Origin: Candidatus Rokuibacteriota bacterium
GTDB lineage: Bacteria > Methylomirabilota > Methylomirabilia > Rokubacteriales > CSP1-6
DNA length: 63,385 nucleotides
Assembly: GCA_023248995.1 (NCBI GenBank)
Contig: JAHFDN010000014.1
Location: forward strand, 1-63,385
Reading direction: 5' to 3'
Part shown: positions 29,542-47,924 of the stretch, piece after piece
Numbering within the stretch: position 1 is the first letter of the stretch
Layout: every line of letters begins with the position of its first letter
Notes under the pieces: generated by a model
The model's database searches: none
Told to the model about the DNA's origin: nothing
The model's input: the letters and a program-made list of their open reading frames with translations, nothing else
Position numbers and translations under genes: made by a program

Positions 29542-29555
29542 AATTGCATACTGTT

Positions 29556-30155
29556 ATGAAGCTCACCCCGCAACGAACCTCCCAACTCATCCTCGCCACC
29601 ATCGCCCTCTTCGCCCTCGGCGTCGCCGGCAGCCTCTATATCAAGGCTCGCGCCGTGCCCGAGCCCCTCGACACCCCGCCGACACAAGCCGACTACCAGA
29701 TCAAGCAAGTGCGCCTCCAGGAGATGGGAAGCGGCAACACCCACTGGCGGCTCATCGCCGATCAGGCCGAGGTCTTCGAAGGCGAGGGAAGAACCCTCAT
29801 GCGGAAGGTGAAGATCACGATCGAGGAGCCCGACAGGACCTGGACGGTCACCGGGGACGAAGGCGACCTCCTCAACGCCACGAAGGACGTCGAGATCCGG
29901 AAAAACGTCGTGATGGTCAACACCCAGGGCGTCCGGCTCCAAACTGAGACGCTCCGCTGGCAGGCCAAGGAGCGGCGCGTCTGGACCACGGACCCGGTGA
30001 CGATCTTCCGCGAGGGAACCGTCGTCACGGGGCAGGGGCTCGATTCCTGGATGTCGCTCGAGCAGACCCGCGTGAAAGGCCGGGTCCGGGCGATCTTCTC
30101 CGACGAGAAGGAACCCCGCGTGTCCTCCGCCACCGATCGGGAGCGCGCCAAATGA
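29556..30155 (+). CDS. lptC: LPS export protein LptC
   Basis: Bitopic inner-membrane component of the LPS transport bridge. The 199-residue protein has a single N-terminal membrane anchor (LILATIALFALGVAGSLYI) and a periplasmic beta-jellyroll with alternating strands (WRLIADQAEVFEGEGRTLM, WTVTGDEGDLLNATKDVEI, VRLQTETLRW). ATG 29556 is preferred on promoter grounds. It ends in ATGA overlapping lptA. The gene context of lptC, lptA, lptB and rpoN confirms the assignment. Confidence 0.92.
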   Translation: MKLTPQRTSQLILATIALFALGVAGSLYIKARAVPEPLDTPPTQADYQIKQVRLQEMGSGNTHWRLIADQAEVFEGEGRTLMRKVKITIEEPDRTWTVTGDEGDLLNATKDVEIRKNVVMVNTQGVRLQTETLRWQAKERRVWTTDPVTIFREGTVVTGQGLDSWMSLEQTRVKGRVRAIFSDEKEPRVSSATDRERAK

Positions 30156-30760
30156 GGCGGGCTCTTCCCCTCGCCGTCCTGCTCCTGGGGGCGCTCCTGC
30201 CCCCGCTGGCCCTGCCGTCCCCGTCCCCCGTGCTCGCCCAGCCGGCCACACCCAAGAAGCCGGCCGTCAGATCGGACGCCCCCTCCCCGAAGCCCGAGGA
30301 AGACGAGAAGAACCAACCCGTGACCGTGGACGCGGACCAGATGGAGAGCATGCAGAAGGAAGGGCTCGTCATCTTCACGGGGAACGTCGTGGCGCGGCAG
30401 AACAACTCGGTCCAGTACGCCGACCGGACCGAGGTGTACCTGGACGCCAAGGGGGACAAGGTCGTCCGCACCGTGTCTCTCGGCAACGTGCGCATCATCA
30501 CCAAAGACTGCCGCATCGGCACGGCCGGGCGCGCCGAGTACTACGACGCCGAGCAGCGCGTGGTGCTCATCGGCAACGCGCGCGTCTGGCGGGACGACAA
30601 CATGGCCACGGGGGATCGCATCACCATCTTCCTGGCCGAAGATCGGAGCGTGGTCGAGGGGGGCCGTCAGGGGCGCGTGAAGGCGATCTTCTACCCCAAG
30701 TCGCAGGACGGGCAGAAACCGGTCCGGCCGGCCGTTTCCGGCCCCTTTCCCTGCGGGTGA
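30152..30760 (+). CDS. lptA: LPS transport periplasmic protein LptA
   Basis: OstA-like protein forming the periplasmic bridge for LPS. The 202-residue product has a signal peptide ([19 protein letters not shown]), a charged Pro/Lys/Glu linker, then the OstA core ([60 protein letters not shown]). It ends in a Pro-rich tail with a lone Cys. It overlaps lptC by four bases and is seven bases from lptB. Confidence 0.93.
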
Positions 30761-30767
30761 TCGGCCG

Positions 30768-31490
30768 ATGGAAGGGCTCATCGCCCAGGGGTTGCTCAAG
30801 CGCTTCGGCCCCCGCCGGGTCGTGGACAACGTCAGCTTCGACATCCAACGGGGAGAAGTCGTCGGCCTTCTCGGCCCGAACGGGGCAGGGAAGACGACCT
30901 CCTTCTACATGATGGTGGGCCTCCTCAGGCCCGACGGGGGCCGGATCTTCCTCGAAGGGGAGGAGGTCACCGACCTGCCGATGTACAAGCGCTGCCGGAT
31001 GGGTCTGGGATACCTGCCGCAGGAGTCCTCCGTCTTCCGGAAGCTCACGGTGGAGGAAAACCTCCTGGCGATCCTGGAAACCCTCGACCTCTCCCACTCC
31101 CACCGGCTCGAGCGCCTGCACGAGCTCCTCGAAGAGCTGGACCTCACGCGCCTCGCCCACCACAAGGCCTTCAGCCTGTCGGGAGGCGAGCGCCGGCGAC
31201 TGGAGATCACGCGCGCGCTGGTGACGTCACCCCGCTACCTGCTCCTGGACGAGCCGTTCACCGGGATCGACCCGATCGCCATCGGGGACATCCAGGAAAT
31301 CGTCGCCCGGCTCCGCGAGCGCGGGATCGGCATCCTCATCACCGATCACAACGTGCGAGAAACGCTCGCGATCACCGATCGGGCGTACGTCCTCTACGAC
31401 GGCAAGGTCCTCGTCTCGGGCACCGCCATGGAGCTGGCTCAGAACCCGACCGCCCGCGAGATCTACCTGGGCGAGAAGTTCTCCCTGTAA
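30768..31490 (+). CDS. lptB: LPS export ABC transporter ATP-binding protein LptB
   Basis: The cytoplasmic ATPase that, as a dimer with LptF and LptG, extracts LPS from the inner membrane. The 240-residue product has Walker [11 protein letters not shown], the Q-loop in [16 protein letters not shown] signature [11 protein letters not shown], Walker B YLLLDEPF and switch His in [10 protein letters not shown]. Its membrane partner in this genome is the single fused LptF-LptG gene at 44501-46807. Confidence 0.97.
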
Positions 31491-41828: not shown

Positions 41829-43424
41829 ATGACGCGCCTCCAGGGAGCGGTGCTGGTGTCGGCGGTCGCGGCACTCCTCGTCCTCCCGTCGCTCGGGCAG
41901 CGGACCCTGGCCACCAACGACGAGGTCCGGTTCGCGCTCCTGGCCCGCGACATGATCGAGCGCGGCGTCTGGTTCGACGTCCAGGTCCGCGGCACGCCGT
42001 ACCGCAACAAGCCGCTCCTCTACCCCTGGAGCATCGCCCTGCTGGCGCGCCTTCGAGGGGGCGTCACCGAAGCCGCGGCCCAGCTGCCCCCCGCCGCGGC
42101 GGCGATCGGCTCGGTGCTCTTCACCTTCCTCCTGGGCGACCGGCTGTTCGGCCGGCGCGCCGGACTCTGGGCGGCGCTGATCCTGGCGACGAGCTACGGT
42201 TTCTTCGCCCTGAGCCAGCTGAGCCTGCCGGACCTGCTCGTCGTCTGGTTTCAGACCATGGCCGGTTTGAGCTTCTGGCGCGCGGTGCGTGAGCCGCCCG
42301 GACGGCAGGCGCTCCCGGCCTTCTACGTCTTCCTCGCCCTGGGCGTCTTCGCCAAGGGACCGGTCGGGCTGCTCCCCCTGCTCCCGGCCGCCCTCTGGCT
42401 CCTCACCGAGCACGGCGCCGGAGGTGTCCTCCGGCGTCTCTGGAGCCCGGTGGGCGCGGCGGCCTTCGCCCTGATCACCGCGCTCTGGCTGGGCCCGTTT
42501 CTGGCACTCGGCGCGGGGAGTTTCGGCCGGTCCGTCGTGTGGCAGGACTGGCTCGCCTGGTACTTCGGCCTGCCCGCCGCCCGGAATCTGGGAAACGTCG
42601 CCGTGGATCTGAGCGTGGGCTTCCTGCCCTGGACGCTCCTGGCCCCTCTGGTGCTCGTCGCCGCCTTCGGGGCGCGCCAGAACCCCGGGGTGAGGTTCGC
42701 CCTCCTGTGGGCCGCCGTGCCGCTCCTCGTGACCATGCTCGCCCTACATCAGCGGACGCGCTACCTGGCGCCGGTCTACCCGGGAGCCGCGCTGCTCGTC
42801 GGCTGGTGGGCGGATGCCCGCGGCAGCGCGCGGACCACCGCCGGCCGCATCGTCGGCTGGGCGGCGCTGGCGAGCGCCCTGGGTGCCATCGTCCTCCTCG
42901 GCATGCCGGCGTGGCTGGGACCCGAGCAACGCCCATTCGTTCCCGGACTCTCGTGGCAGGTGCTCCCGCTGGCCCTGGGACTCGGGCTCCTGGGGATCGC
43001 CTTCTGCTGGGGGCTCTCGGCCGGCCGCCCGGCGCTCGTCGTGGGCGGCGGCGTGGCGGCGCTCGTCCTGATCCTGGGCTACGGCACCTGGCTCTACACC
43101 TCGCGCTTCAACAGGCTGTGGGACTTCAGGGGGCTGACGGCCAGCCTCGAGCGCCACGCCGGGGGCAGGGAGGCGGCGATGTACGGCGTGCGGTGGTTCG
43201 CGCTCGACTTCTACCTGGGCCGTTCGGTCCGCTGGATCGGCACGCCCGCGGAGTTCAACGCCTTCCTCGCCGGGAGCGACCGCCCGGTGGCGGTGGTGAG
43301 CGGGCGCACCTGGCGAAGCATCCAGGCGGAGACCTCCCCGGGGATCCGCGTCCTGGAGCGGACGAGCGTCGGCCTCCAGGACGTGCTCATCGTGGGGCCG
43401 GGCAGGCCGAGCGAAAAACCCTGA
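41829..43424 (+). CDS. Glycosyltransferase family 39 (ArnT-like) membrane protein
   Basis: A 531-residue multi-pass membrane protein using a polyprenyl-phosphate sugar donor. The catalytic first periplasmic loop is LATNDEVRFALLARDMIERG, in which the DE pair is the family's acidic motif, followed by YRNKPLLYPWSIALL. About twelve hydrophobic segments and a soluble C-terminal tail (residues about 430-531) complete the fold. Relatives modify lipid A or cell-wall glycans. With the next gene (a PAP2 lipid phosphatase) this looks like an envelope-modification pair; the acceptor is unknown. Confidence 0.88.
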   Translation: MTRLQGAVLVSAVAALLVLPSLGQRTLATNDEVRFALLARDMIERGVWFDVQVRGTPYRNKPLLYPWSIALLARLRGGVTEAAAQLPPAAAAIGSVLFTFLLGDRLFGRRAGLWAALILATSYGFFALSQLSLPDLLVVWFQTMAGLSFWRAVREPPGRQALPAFYVFLALGVFAKGPVGLLPLLPAALWLLTEHGAGGVLRRLWSPVGAAAFALITALWLGPFLALGAGSFGRSVVWQDWLAWYFGLPAARNLGNVAVDLSVGFLPWTLLAPLVLVAAFGARQNPGVRFALLWAAVPLLVTMLALHQRTRYLAPVYPGAALLVGWWADARGSARTTAGRIVGWAALASALGAIVLLGMPAWLGPEQRPFVPGLSWQVLPLALGLGLLGIAFCWGLSAGRPALVVGGGVAALVLILGYGTWLYTSRFNRLWDFRGLTASLERHAGGREAAMYGVRWFALDFYLGRSVRWIGTPAEFNAFLAGSDRPVAVVSGRTWRSIQAETSPGIRVLERTSVGLQDVLIVGPGRPSEKP

Positions 43425-43434
43425 GGGGGCCGCC

Positions 43435-44484
43435 GTGGACCTGATCGCTCTGGGGTGCCCCCTCGTGAGGTCGGACGCGCTCGAGCGCCTGATGGGCGTG
43501 CTCGTCTATCTCGGGCACGGCGTGGTGGACGCCCTCGTCGCCGCCCTCATCTTGGCCCTCGGGGGGATGACGACGGACCGGCGCTGGCGGCGAGCGGGGC
43601 TCGCCGCCTTGCTCGCCGTGGTGATCTCGGGCCTCCTGGCGAACCTGTTCAAGCTCCTGTTCGCGCTGCCGCGCCCGACGCCGAGCGAGAGCTTCGGCTT
43701 TCCCTCGGGTCACACGAGCACCGCGTTCGCCCTGGCGGGAGCCCTCGGTCGGGCGTTTCCGGCCGCCGCTCCGTTCCTCTACCTCCTGGCCGTCCTCGCC
43801 GCCGTCGCGCGACTGTACGTCCGCTCGCACTTCGTCGTGGACGTCATCGGCGGCTCCCTTCTCGGCAGTTCCACCGGCTTGATCGCCGCACTCTTCCTGC
43901 GCGCCGACCCCAGCGCCCTAGCCCCGCGGCCTCGGACCCGCTGGGCCTGGGTGCTCCCCGTCGCCGTCGGCATTCCGGCCCTCGCATTCTTCGGCGTGTA
44001 CGAGCGGGACGTCTCGGCCCACCGGCTCGAGCGCACCCCCGCCGCCGCGCCGGCGGGTGGTCTACACATCGCCTTCGGGACGCCCGCCGCGAGGCAGTTC
44101 CTCCTCGACGGCTGGTCCGGGGACGACGGGAGATGGGGCGACACACCCGTGGCCTGGGCCCTGGGCCGGGAGGCCACGCTCCGCCTCCCGGGTCCGGCGC
44201 CCGGGAACCACCGGCTTCGCCTCCGGCTGCGCGCCGACGGTCGCCCCGCGGACCGCCCGCCCTGCCAGGTCATGGAGGTGGTGGTCAACGGCGCTCCCGT
44301 CGCGCGCCTGCTCCTGGAAAAGGGGTGGAACACGTACGAGGTGAACGTCCCGAAGGAACGGGTCCGCCCCGGGCCGAACGAGCTCCGCTTCCGGTTCGCC
44401 TACGCCCAGCTCGCGGGAGCCGGCGCCCCGAGCGCCGCCTTCGCCTCCCTCGCGATCTTCCCCGCCGGCGACGGGGGCCGCTGA
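43435..44484 (+). CDS. PAP2-family lipid phosphatase with an extra C-terminal beta-rich domain
   Basis: A 349-residue protein starting at GTG 43435, ten bases after the GT39 stop. The N-terminal 190 residues are a membrane PAP2 domain with all three motifs: Lys73-x6-Arg80-Pro81 (KLLFALPRP), Pro-Ser-Gly-His93, and Arg130-Ser-His132-x3-Asp136. It would dephosphorylate undecaprenyl pyrophosphate or another lipid phosphate. After the last helix (VLPVAVGIPALAFFGVY), residues about 200-349 look like an exported beta-sandwich (REATLRLPGPAPGNHRLRLR, VMEVVVNGAPVARLLLEKGW), an uncommon addition, perhaps carbohydrate-binding. Confidence 0.87.
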   Translation: MDLIALGCPLVRSDALERLMGVLVYLGHGVVDALVAALILALGGMTTDRRWRRAGLAALLAVVISGLLANLFKLLFALPRPTPSESFGFPSGHTSTAFALAGALGRAFPAAAPFLYLLAVLAAVARLYVRSHFVVDVIGGSLLGSSTGLIAALFLRADPSALAPRPRTRWAWVLPVAVGIPALAFFGVYERDVSAHRLERTPAAAPAGGLHIAFGTPAARQFLLDGWSGDDGRWGDTPVAWALGREATLRLPGPAPGNHRLRLRLRADGRPADRPPCQVMEVVVNGAPVARLLLEKGWNTYEVNVPKERVRPGPNELRFRFAYAQLAGAGAPSAAFASLAIFPAGDGGR

Positions 44485-44504
44485 CGGACCCGACGCTCCG
44501 TCAG
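44481..44504. terminator. Shared hairpin between two convergent genes
   Basis: CTGACGGA pairs perfectly with TCCGTCAG across an 8-base loop. The PAP2 stop codon lies on one arm (44482-44484) and the lptF-lptG stop codon on the other (44501-44503). The structure is symmetrical and could serve both strands. T-runs are weak. Confidence 0.5.
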
Positions 44505-46807
44505 GTCCGGGCCCGCAAAAAGAGCGAGAGGCCGAGGCCGGCGAACACGACGTTCGCCGTCCAGGCCGCGAGCACGGGAGGAAGGAGATCCGCCTTCGCG
44601 AAGGAGATCGCCAGCGAGTTCACCACCCAGTACCCCATGGAGATCCCGATGGCCAGGGCGATCCCGATGATGCGCCCCCCGCGCGGCCACTGAAGCGCGA
44701 ACGGGATCGCCACCAGCGCCATGATCACGTGGACCAGCGGGAAGGAGAGCTTGGAGTAGAGCTGGACCAGGTACTTGCCGACCTGGTGGCCGCTCTCCTG
44801 GAGCTTCTGCATGTAGGCCCGGAGCTCGCGGAAGCTCATGGTGTCGGCGGGCTTCTGGATCTGGATGAAGTCGTTGATGGATTCCGGCAGCTCCAGCGCC
44901 GTCAACGTGAACGGCACCGACTCCGCGCTCCCGTCGGCGCCGAATTCCCGGAACGTCCCGCGCTCGAACTCCCACCCCGCAGGACGCCAGAACGCCCGGG
45001 CCGCGTCCAACCGATCCAGCAGGCGGAAGCCCCGGTCAATCTCGAACACGGTCACCCCGTCCATCTGCTTCCCCGCGGGGTCCAGGAGCTCCAGCCGGAA
45101 GAAGCGGGACTCCGAGCTCCGGTACCAGATCTGGGACCGGCGCTGGAGGTGGCGCGGCATCTCGCCCCGGATCTTGATCCGATCCACCTCCTCGCCCTTG
45201 GAGTTGAGCATCGGCAGGAGCGTCTCCTGGAACGCCACCGAGCCGACGCTCACCAGGAAGGCCAGCAGCAGGATGGGCAGGCTCACCCGGTAGAGGCTGA
45301 CGCCCGCCGCCTTGAGCGCGGTGAGCTCGTGCTGCCGGCTCAGCGCGAGGAAGAGAAAGATCGTGGCGATCAAGACGATGATCGGGAGGCCCTGGTAGAG
45401 CCCGGCCGGCAGCCGGAAGACGAAGTGCTCGAAGATGTAGACGAGAGGGGGCTTAATGCGGAGATAGCGATCCAGGTCCTGGATGAGATCCCCCACGACG
45501 AAGAGCGTCGCGGCGACCCCCAGCCCGAGCCCCATGTACATGAGGAACTCGCGGACTAGGTAGCGATCCATGAGGTGCGTGGACTGTCGCAGAGTCCCCA
45601 CCTGCCGCAGCCGCTGCCGCGCAACGAGGCGCCGGGAGGCCGAGGGTCGCGCCGCGAAGCGCTGCCGGATGAGCGCGACGACGTTCCCCCAGCCCGCCGG
45701 GACCTGCGCGGCGCTGCCACGCAGCAGCCCGAGCCCGACGACCGCGAACAAGAGCGTCGGCGTCCAGATGGCCAGCCACGGGACCACGCGCCCGCTGAGC
45801 GCGAGGCCCTCCAGGGAGGTGAGCAGCAGGTAATAGGTCACCACGATGGCCAGGCTGCCGACCAGGGCCACCCCGCGGCCGCCCCGGTGGGACCGGATCC
45901 CCAGCGGGAAACCGACCATGACGAAGACGACCGCGGCCGCGGGAAAGGCCAGCCGTTTGTGGAACTCGACCAGGAACGGCGCGGCGACCCGGGGATCTCC
46001 TGTAGACTGGTGGCCCTGGGCGATGAGCGCCCAGACGCCCAAATCCTTCTCCGGCTTTTCCACCCGCGGGGCGGCGGTCAGCGGGCTCTCGACGGCGAGG
46101 TTCATGTCGTAGAGCCCGAACGCCGTCCGGCGGTAGCGCGCCGGGTTGTTGGTCTCCGACTCGTGGATCGCGCCATCAATGAGCCTGAGCGTGATGCGGC
46201 GGTTTTCCTCGTCGGTGAAGAGCCGCCCCTGGCGCGCCGTGATGATCCGGGAGAGCTTCGGATCCCGCTCGTCGGCCACCATGAGCCCGCGCAGCCCGAC
46301 CTGGGACGCCGACACCTCCTCCACGTAGATCACGAACTGCCCGAAGGTCGTGTTGAACACCCGCTCCTTGATCCCCGTGGCCGCCCGGGTCTGGAGAATC
46401 TTGAAGAGCTGCCACCGGAACGCGTTGTTCGACCACGGGTTCACCGCCAGGGTCAAGGCGGCGGTCAGGGCGGTCACGACGAGTGCTCCCACCAGGAACG
46501 GCCGGAAGAGCCTGAGGGGGCTCACACCCGAGGCTTGCAGCGCGACGACCTCCAGGTCCGCGGCGAACCGGCCCGCCGCCAGCAGGACCGCCACGAGGAG
46601 CGCGATGGGCAGGGTGTGAGCGAGGAAGGACGGCAGCATGAAGACCAGGAGCTGGAGCACGAGGTAGAACGGCACGCCCTTGGTGACCACCAGATCCGTG
46701 AGACTGTAAATGCGGTCGATGGTCAAAAAGAAGGTGAACAGCCCCACCCCGATGGCGAACGGGGAGACGAGCTCCCGGAAGACGTAGCGGTCGAACACGC
46801 GGGTCAC
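44501..46807 (-). CDS. Fused LptF-LptG LPS export permease
   Basis: One 768-residue reading frame carries both permeases of the LPS exporter. Residues 1 to about 385 match LptF: RVFDRYVFRELVSPFAIGVG, VLLAAGRFAADLEVVALQAS, a periplasmic beta domain, then FPAAAVVFVMVGFPLGIRS. A basic linker (about 386-412) follows. From Met413, MDRYLVREFLMYMGLGLGVA begins a complete LptG with SRQHELTALKAAGVSLYR and KLSFPLVHVIMALVAIPFAL. Each half has about six membrane segments and one periplasmic jellyroll. The start at GTG 46807 has GGAGG six bases upstream. No stop or frameshift lies in the linker. The ATPase partner LptB is at 30768. Confidence 0.93.
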   Translation of the reverse strand: MTRVFDRYVFRELVSPFAIGVGLFTFFLTIDRIYSLTDLVVTKGVPFYLVLQLLVFMLPSFLAHTLPIALLVAVLLAAGRFAADLEVVALQASGVSPLRLFRPFLVGALVVTALTAALTLAVNPWSNNAFRWQLFKILQTRAATGIKERVFNTTFGQFVIYVEEVSASQVGLRGLMVADERDPKLSRIITARQGRLFTDEENRRITLRLIDGAIHESETNNPARYRRTAFGLYDMNLAVESPLTAAPRVEKPEKDLGVWALIAQGHQSTGDPRVAAPFLVEFHKRLAFPAAAVVFVMVGFPLGIRSHRGGRGVALVGSLAIVVTYYLLLTSLEGLALSGRVVPWLAIWTPTLLFAVVGLGLLRGSAAQVPAGWGNVVALIRQRFAARPSASRRLVARQRLRQVGTLRQSTHLMDRYLVREFLMYMGLGLGVAATLFVVGDLIQDLDRYLRIKPPLVYIFEHFVFRLPAGLYQGLPIIVLIATIFLFLALSRQHELTALKAAGVSLYRVSLPILLLAFLVSVGSVAFQETLLPMLNSKGEEVDRIKIRGEMPRHLQRRSQIWYRSSESRFFRLELLDPAGKQMDGVTVFEIDRGFRLLDRLDAARAFWRPAGWEFERGTFREFGADGSAESVPFTLTALELPESINDFIQIQKPADTMSFRELRAYMQKLQESGHQVGKYLVQLYSKLSFPLVHVIMALVAIPFALQWPRGGRIIGIALAIGISMGYWVVNSLAISFAKADLLPPVLAAWTANVVFAGLGLSLFLRART

Positions 46808-46841
46808 GGAAAGCCTCCACGTTCTGTTGTACCATAGCCCC

Positions 46842-47924
46842 GTGAATCGGCGAACCATCCTGGGCCTCCTGCTCGCCGGGCTCGCGCTGACCGGGGGCAC
46901 GCCCGCCGAGCCCGGTGACCCCGCGCCCGGCGATCGGCTGGAGCGGTTCCGCCAGCTCGCCGCCTCCCGGCTCGGGGCGCTCGAGCTCTCCGGCCACGCC
47001 CCGTCCGAGGAAGCGCTCGCCGAGATCTACGCGCTCTTGGACGACGAGATCGTCGAGAGCCTCGCGAGCGGGAGCCTCTTCGCCTCGGAAGCGTTTCTCC
47101 AGGAGCAACTCGACGCGTTCACCGACACCTGGGGGGGCGCGGCCCTCCGCATTCGAGCCGTCGGCGACGGTCTCCTCGTCGGAGCGTTCCAGTTGTCCCC
47201 CGGCGGACCGGGCAACAGCGTGCGGGTCTATGACCGGCGCGGCGGGGCCCGGCTGATCCAGGCCATCCACGGGGAGGGAGCTCCCCTCCTCGAGGAACTG
47301 CCGCCGCGGCGCACCGGCGCGCCCCAGTTCCTCGTGGCGTGGGTCGGGCCCCAGTCGAGCCGCGGGAACACGGCCCTCAGACTCGAGCTCTGGCAGGTCA
47401 CCGGCGCCTCCGTGAGCCGGGCCTGGTCCACCGACGGCGTGACGGAGGGCCGCCTCTGGGTCAGCCAGTTCTCCGTCGGCCGGCAGGAGGTCTCGTTCCG
47501 CTACGAGGTGCGGTACCCGGGATGGAAGCCCGGCTGCGACGGCCAGACGGAGCACGAGGACCTCTACCGCTACGTCCCGGCCCGCGAGACCTTCGTCCTC
47601 GCCCGACGCCAGGTGCACCACGGCTGGCACCGCGACTTCCACGCCGGCCTGCTCAAGTTTCTGAGAGCGCTCGAGACGGACGACGCTCGGCTCCTGGCGG
47701 AGCTGGCTCCCGAGCGCGCCGTGCGGGCCAGGCTCCCCGCCCGCCTCGCGCCCGACCTCGCCTGCGACCAGGCGGACGCGCCGTCGCCGGCCACCGTCGC
47801 CACCGCCGCCGTCTCGGCGGGCGACGGACAGCCCTGGACGCTCGTCTTCCGACGCACCGCCAAGGGTTGGCGACTCGCCGCCGCCGACCCGGTGGAGCCC
47901 TTTTCTGCTACAATAACCCGATGA
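46842..47924 (+). CDS. Secreted protein of unknown function
   Basis: A 360-residue product with a signal peptide (NRRTILGLLLAGLALTGG). The mature part is soluble, rich in Arg/Leu/Ala, with a helical N-terminal region, a beta-rich middle (ALRIRAVGDGLLVGAFQLSP; QEVSFRYEVRYPGWKPG) and a C-terminal Ala/Asp-rich part ending in a beta motif (PWTLVFRRTAKGWRLA) resembling small NTF2-like or lumazine-type repeats, though I cannot name a family. GTG 46842 lies exactly seven bases after a weak TACCAT -10-like element. It is divergent from lptF-lptG and overlaps valS by four bases (ATGA), so it may be co-transcribed with valS-birA-coaX. Confidence 0.7.
   Translation: MNRRTILGLLLAGLALTGGTPAEPGDPAPGDRLERFRQLAASRLGALELSGHAPSEEALAEIYALLDDEIVESLASGSLFASEAFLQEQLDAFTDTWGGAALRIRAVGDGLLVGAFQLSPGGPGNSVRVYDRRGGARLIQAIHGEGAPLLEELPPRRTGAPQFLVAWVGPQSSRGNTALRLELWQVTGASVSRAWSTDGVTEGRLWVSQFSVGRQEVSFRYEVRYPGWKPGCDGQTEHEDLYRYVPARETFVLARRQVHHGWHRDFHAGLLKFLRALETDDARLLAELAPERAVRARLPARLAPDLACDQADAPSPATVATAAVSAGDGQPWTLVFRRTAKGWRLAAADPVEPFSATITR
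47906..47914 (+). promoter_or_regulatory. Extended -10 promoter for a leaderless valS transcript
   Basis: TGCTACAAT (extended -10) inside the end of the upstream gene. The predicted start seven bases later coincides with ATG 47921. No -35 consensus and no Shine-Dalgarno are visible. Confidence 0.5.

Follow-up and report, generated by a model that had tools for sequence, protein, structure and literature searches.

LptF and LptG in one predicted chain: a lineage-wide fusion of the lipopolysaccharide exporter halves in Rokubacteriales

In E. coli and other Proteobacteria, the lipopolysaccharide (LPS) exporter LptB2FG, or LptB2FGC with LptC, has a membrane part made of two separate chains, LptF and LptG, whose genes overlap in E. 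coli by one base. The end of LptF and the start of LptG both lie in the cytoplasm, and the two halves of the exporter are believed to contribute unequally. Two membrane halves fused on one chain are familiar from full-size ABC exporters; however, the folds of these transporters are different and their chain includes the ATPase, whereas the LptB ATPase is separate in the LptFG system. The kind of machine considered here is known, but a single-chain LptFG is apparently undescribed in the literature searched: we could not find a description of a natural LptF-LptG fusion in the open-access papers (subscription papers and preprints lay outside the search).

The window analysed here (the whole stretch of 63,385 nucleotides) comes from a Candidatus Rokuibacteriota genome of 2.34 Mb that is 97% complete. 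On its minus strand, a single gene, lptFG (44501-46807), comprises 768 codons and a stop (44501-44503) and starts with GTG at 46807; a Shine-Dalgarno-like GGAGG (46814-46818, minus strand), read directly from the sequence, is separated from this GTG by six bases. The original prediction had placed LptF and LptG in one 768-residue frame at 44501-46807; its coordinates were right, its missing strand is minus, and both halves are complete by NCBIfam. Pfam PF03739 matches the product twice. The LptF half (residues 1-363; 45719-46807, minus strand) matches the equivalog model TIGR04407 at residues 5-362; taken alone, it scores 247.1 bits against a curated cut-off of 230 and covers model positions 2-345 of 347. 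The LptG half (residues 413-768; 44504-45571, minus strand) matches TIGR04408 at residues 413-765, with 252 bits against a cut-off of 240 and model positions 2-350 of 351. Between them lies an inter-domain segment (residues 364-412; 45572-45718, minus strand). No further PF03739 gene was found in the source genome. In place of the usual separate LptF and LptG chains there is a conserved single frame.

Just before the start of lptFG, a GTACAA motif (46827-46832, minus strand) is conserved upstream in relatives, occurring ahead of 45 of 60 fused genes and in 16 of 1200 control windows; possibly it is the -10 element of a promoter, the message then being nearly leaderless. A promoter scan found nothing. 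As for the flanking genes, a 365-residue frame without a Pfam match (46827-47924, plus strand) is divergent from lptFG; a similar sequence accompanies 39 of 50 Rokubacteria loci, and ValS likewise 39 of 50. On the other side, the region 41829-44484 (plus strand), convergent to lptFG, encodes a PAP2 phosphatase carrying an additional C-terminal portion and an ArnT-like membrane glycosyltransferase, the latter match scoring below the cut-off.

An AlphaFold model of the fusion chain alone, built with 77 aligned sequences (mean pLDDT 87.2, pTM 0.77), predicts two folds of the LptF/LptG type joined by a disordered linker, with pLDDT below 50 solely at residues 245-249 and 386-405. In fold comparisons, which included Foldseek, solved LptF chains align with model residues 3-377 and LptG chains with residues 409-768 (Z 18.8-27.4), and each half is predicted to have the membrane helices and periplasmic beta domain of the family. 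No unrelated fold exceeded Z 9.7 in the comparison of the model; MATE and MurJ chains (Z under 10) were taken to reflect common helical arrangements. Certain residues of E. coli LptF (R33) and LptG (K34, K40, and K41) are basic and presumably touch LPS; in a low-identity alignment, R33 corresponds to S35, K34 to D440, and K40 to D446, none of which is basic, and K41 to R447. The coupling helices retain their glutamates: E86 of the LptF half aligns with E. coli E84 and E494 of the LptG half with E88, and both are invariant in 24 fused proteins. According to PMC5082905, these glutamates couple LptF and LptG to LptB.

The distribution of the fusion was surveyed in 95 genomes of the phylum, 60 from Rokubacteriales and 35 from other families of the class, with loci checked in stop-free frames. 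An in-frame LptF-LptG junction is present in 56/60 Rokubacteriales genomes (54/57 in the family of the source and 2/3 elsewhere in the order). In the remaining four, no junction could be used: two gave no match, one gave a fragment, and in one the contig ends inside LptF. None of the 60 has a split pair alone. In three fused genes, 77, 55, and 218 bases are deleted from within a half, the junction being unaffected. By contrast, the other families of the class (Methylomirabilota) have split lptF-lptG in 26 of the 27 genomes that could be checked; among the other eight of their 35 genomes, six gave no match, one gave a fragment, and one (G002) was left out. These split genes, the close outside relatives of the fusion, are adjacent and in the same order, but they occupy separate frames, with ATG or GTG as the lptG start. 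An alignment of 24 fused proteins was used to scan named genomes and yielded 50 loci from Candidatus Rokubacteria or Rokuibacteriota, including CSP1-6 and one labelled Methylomirabilota; the best of them are 75-80% identical in the best segment. All 50 are in frame at the junction (46 whole in one frame, one cut by a contig end, and three with deletions elsewhere). In a quick tree search of 99 chosen rows, some of them on long branches, 26 Rokubacteria fusions form one clade (SH-aLRT 100). On sequence grounds, lptFG is a real, old, and lineage-wide fusion in Rokubacteriales. It should be noted that one genome (L048 (L164), G054) has a fused copy of another kind, 47% identical to that of the source, in addition to two other fused copies, and that some other genomes have two fused copies.

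The linker joining the halves had been described as basic and about 25 residues long. It is indeed basic, with a net charge of +10 in the source sequence, but the length holds only for its flexible part; the whole segment spans about 50 residues. It is predicted to comprise a helix (residues 371-384) and then a disordered basic stretch of about 24 poorly ordered residues, this stretch ending in STHL; the next helix starts at residue 409. Across 64 fused frames, the linkers range from 45 to 59 residues and from +3 to +17 in net charge, with an overall arginine content of 20%, and a Ser-Thr-His ahead of the LptG half is conserved. Among 13 close pairs tried, dN/dS of the linker was below 1 in 12/12 computable pairs (range 0 to 0.82), exceeding that of the halves in most pairs. 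Judged by these comparisons, the linker is coding, with a weakly constrained sequence. Such a segment, arginine-rich and predicted to be disordered, could be a site at which a full-length chain is cut, in which case the working complex would again be a two-chain LptFG; however, no common cleavage motif was seen by eye in the linkers, and their Ser-Thr-His end is conserved, and we regard later cleavage as unlikely. In the preferred reading, in which the chain stays whole, the linker would be cytoplasmic, as follows from how LptF and LptG are known to be oriented in the membrane; its positive charge agrees with this.

The gene content of the source genome bears on the substrate of the fused protein. 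The window contains lptC (29544-30155; TIGR04409, PF06835), lptA (30152-30760; TIGR03002, PF03968), and lptB (30768-31490; TIGR04406), all on the plus strand, together with genes matching the DAHP synthetase I family (the family of KDO8P synthase), an SIS-CBS protein, KdsC, and RpoN. LptD is encoded on contig 47 and LpxC on contig 42; the genome thus has LptB, LptC, LptA, and LptD as partners. It had been correctly pointed out that lptFG lies apart from lptCAB (29544-31490), but this separation of approximately 13 kb is ordinary: LptA, LptB, or LptC was found within up to 4 kb on either side of lptFG in 0/50 Rokubacteria loci and 0/25 other loci, and PMC8871954 also reports separate lptFG and lptABC loci for Proteobacteria. 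Membership in the LptF/LptG family alone does not fix the cargo. Divergent split LptF/LptG-like pairs (L106, L110, L119, L120, L071, and L074) occur in one family of the same class and, beside the fused gene, in two Rokubacteria (G074 and G077); four such rows form a separate clade in the tree (support 100), and their cargo may differ. The fused protein might likewise be a relative that moves a lipid other than LPS, but this seems quite improbable, given that lptFG is the sole PF03739 gene of a genome carrying LptC, LptA, LptB, LptD, and LpxC, and that each half exceeds an LptF or LptG equivalog cut-off. Most likely, the product of lptFG belongs to an LptB2FGC exporter of the ordinary type whose membrane part is a single chain. 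Both halves, the fold, the coupling-helix glutamates, and the partner genes are shared with the exporters of E. coli and other Proteobacteria, whereas the single chain and its linker are not.

The LptG half might also, or even solely, be translated from a start of its own, either at ATG 45571, which is present in the source sequence and had been named as the position that could undo the fusion, or at another point of the linker. All 64 fused frames contain an in-frame ATG, GTG, or TTG in the junction or close to it, and in 22 of them a Shine-Dalgarno-like match of at least four bases precedes a junction start codon. Nevertheless, across the 64 frames, of which that of the source is one, the codon at the position of ATG 45571 is ATC in 35, GTC in 14, CTC in 8, CTG in 1, ATG in 3, GTG in 2, and TTG in 1; 58 of the frames thus have a non-start codon there. 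Among 30 split lptG genes of the class, counting divergent paralogs, the start codon lies three codons ahead of the x of xDRY in 27 and four codons ahead (ATG) in 3; neither position is a start codon in any of the 64 fused frames. At the first of them, the fused frames encode threonine (56), serine (7), or isoleucine (1), and the source has ACG (Thr410; 45578-45580, minus strand), where lptG begins in most split relatives. Furthermore, none of the junction starts of the source has a four-base Shine-Dalgarno match, and no one junction start position is common to the whole clade. Two products by internal initiation are therefore very improbable, and the fusion stands against this objection.

An artefact of assembly, or a frameshift error in the linker as had also been suggested, could in principle join two genes, as G010 of the same class illustrates (L095; lptF runs in frame into an lptG that lacks its first 47 residues, the others of its family being split, probably a deletion or an assembly fault, so that such in-frame joins can arise as artefacts), but full halves and an in-frame junction in many separate assemblies, the 50 named loci and one frame across the junction in all 64 fused frames included, refute this origin, to which we give practically no credence.

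Fusions of LptF and LptG also appear outside the order. Since the open frames of the genome search read through stops, apparent fusions outside Rokubacteria were re-examined in stop-free frames. In the phylum of Zixibacteria, full-length matches without a stop were found in 5/132 genomes (G192, G193, G195, G224, and G225) and with stops in seven; 21 loci examined in stop-free frames comprised five fused and 16 split. Like lptFG, the five fusions hold both halves in a single stop-free frame (856-877 codons), but they are nested among split Zixibacteria in the tree and have another linker. At the position three codons before the xDRY motif, they have ATC, ATC, ATC, TTG, and TTC; thus, one possible start is kept. 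The nesting points to separate origins: in the same quick search of 99 chosen rows, from which the partial loci L179, L186, and L193 as well as L095 were left out, the fused or split state changes three times, twice inside Zixibacteria. The tree needs at least three origins of the fusion, once in Rokubacteriales and twice in Zixibacteria, and this is a minimum, as Pseudomonadota, Bacteroidota, Nitrospirota, and other phyla lay outside the survey. In the other groups sampled here, the pair was split. Of the 25 loci from other groups in the named-genome scan, 22 had both halves, and all 22 were split. In Desulfobacterota (the phylum of G098; 198 genomes), a stop lies inside all 19 both-half matches among the matches listed, and the nine loci checked in stop-free frames were all split, with no fusion.

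Taken together, lptFG is very probably an ancient true fusion of adjacent lptF and lptG, yielding one polypeptide that comprises the two transmembrane halves of the ABC transporter for LPS extraction. We infer that this polypeptide is translated as one chain and not cut afterwards, that it assembles with LptB2 and LptC, and that its cargo is LPS. The lptF stop and the lptG start codon would have been lost near the base of Rokubacteriales. The two halves would pack face to face, each coupling helix docking on one LptB of the dimer, and LptC would take over LPS on the periplasmic face. A basic linker of about 50 residues could join the halves with the topology unchanged, since it would run in the cytoplasm, the side on which LptF ends and LptG starts, and it would allow the halves to fold side by side; it is a fair inference that the fusion fixes the LptF:LptG stoichiometry at 1:1. 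A more tentative idea, which we consider possible but rather doubtful, is that the linker of the single-chain LptFG, a form that arose three or more times (once in Rokubacteriales and twice in Zixibacteria), is more than a tether: its juxtamembrane helix and Ser-Thr-His end might place the LptG half or contact LptB and so bar misassembly or exchange of the non-equivalent halves.

These observations have practical and biological implications. The fusion is a marker of Rokubacteriales. A naturally occurring single chain such as LptFG, whose linker is free, would be a ready tool in which the stoichiometry is locked and one half can be mutated at a time, and it may ease expression for structural studies and inhibitor tests. 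Finally, the repeated origins of the fusion suggest that the two-chain arrangement of LptF and LptG is not needed for the function of the exporter.
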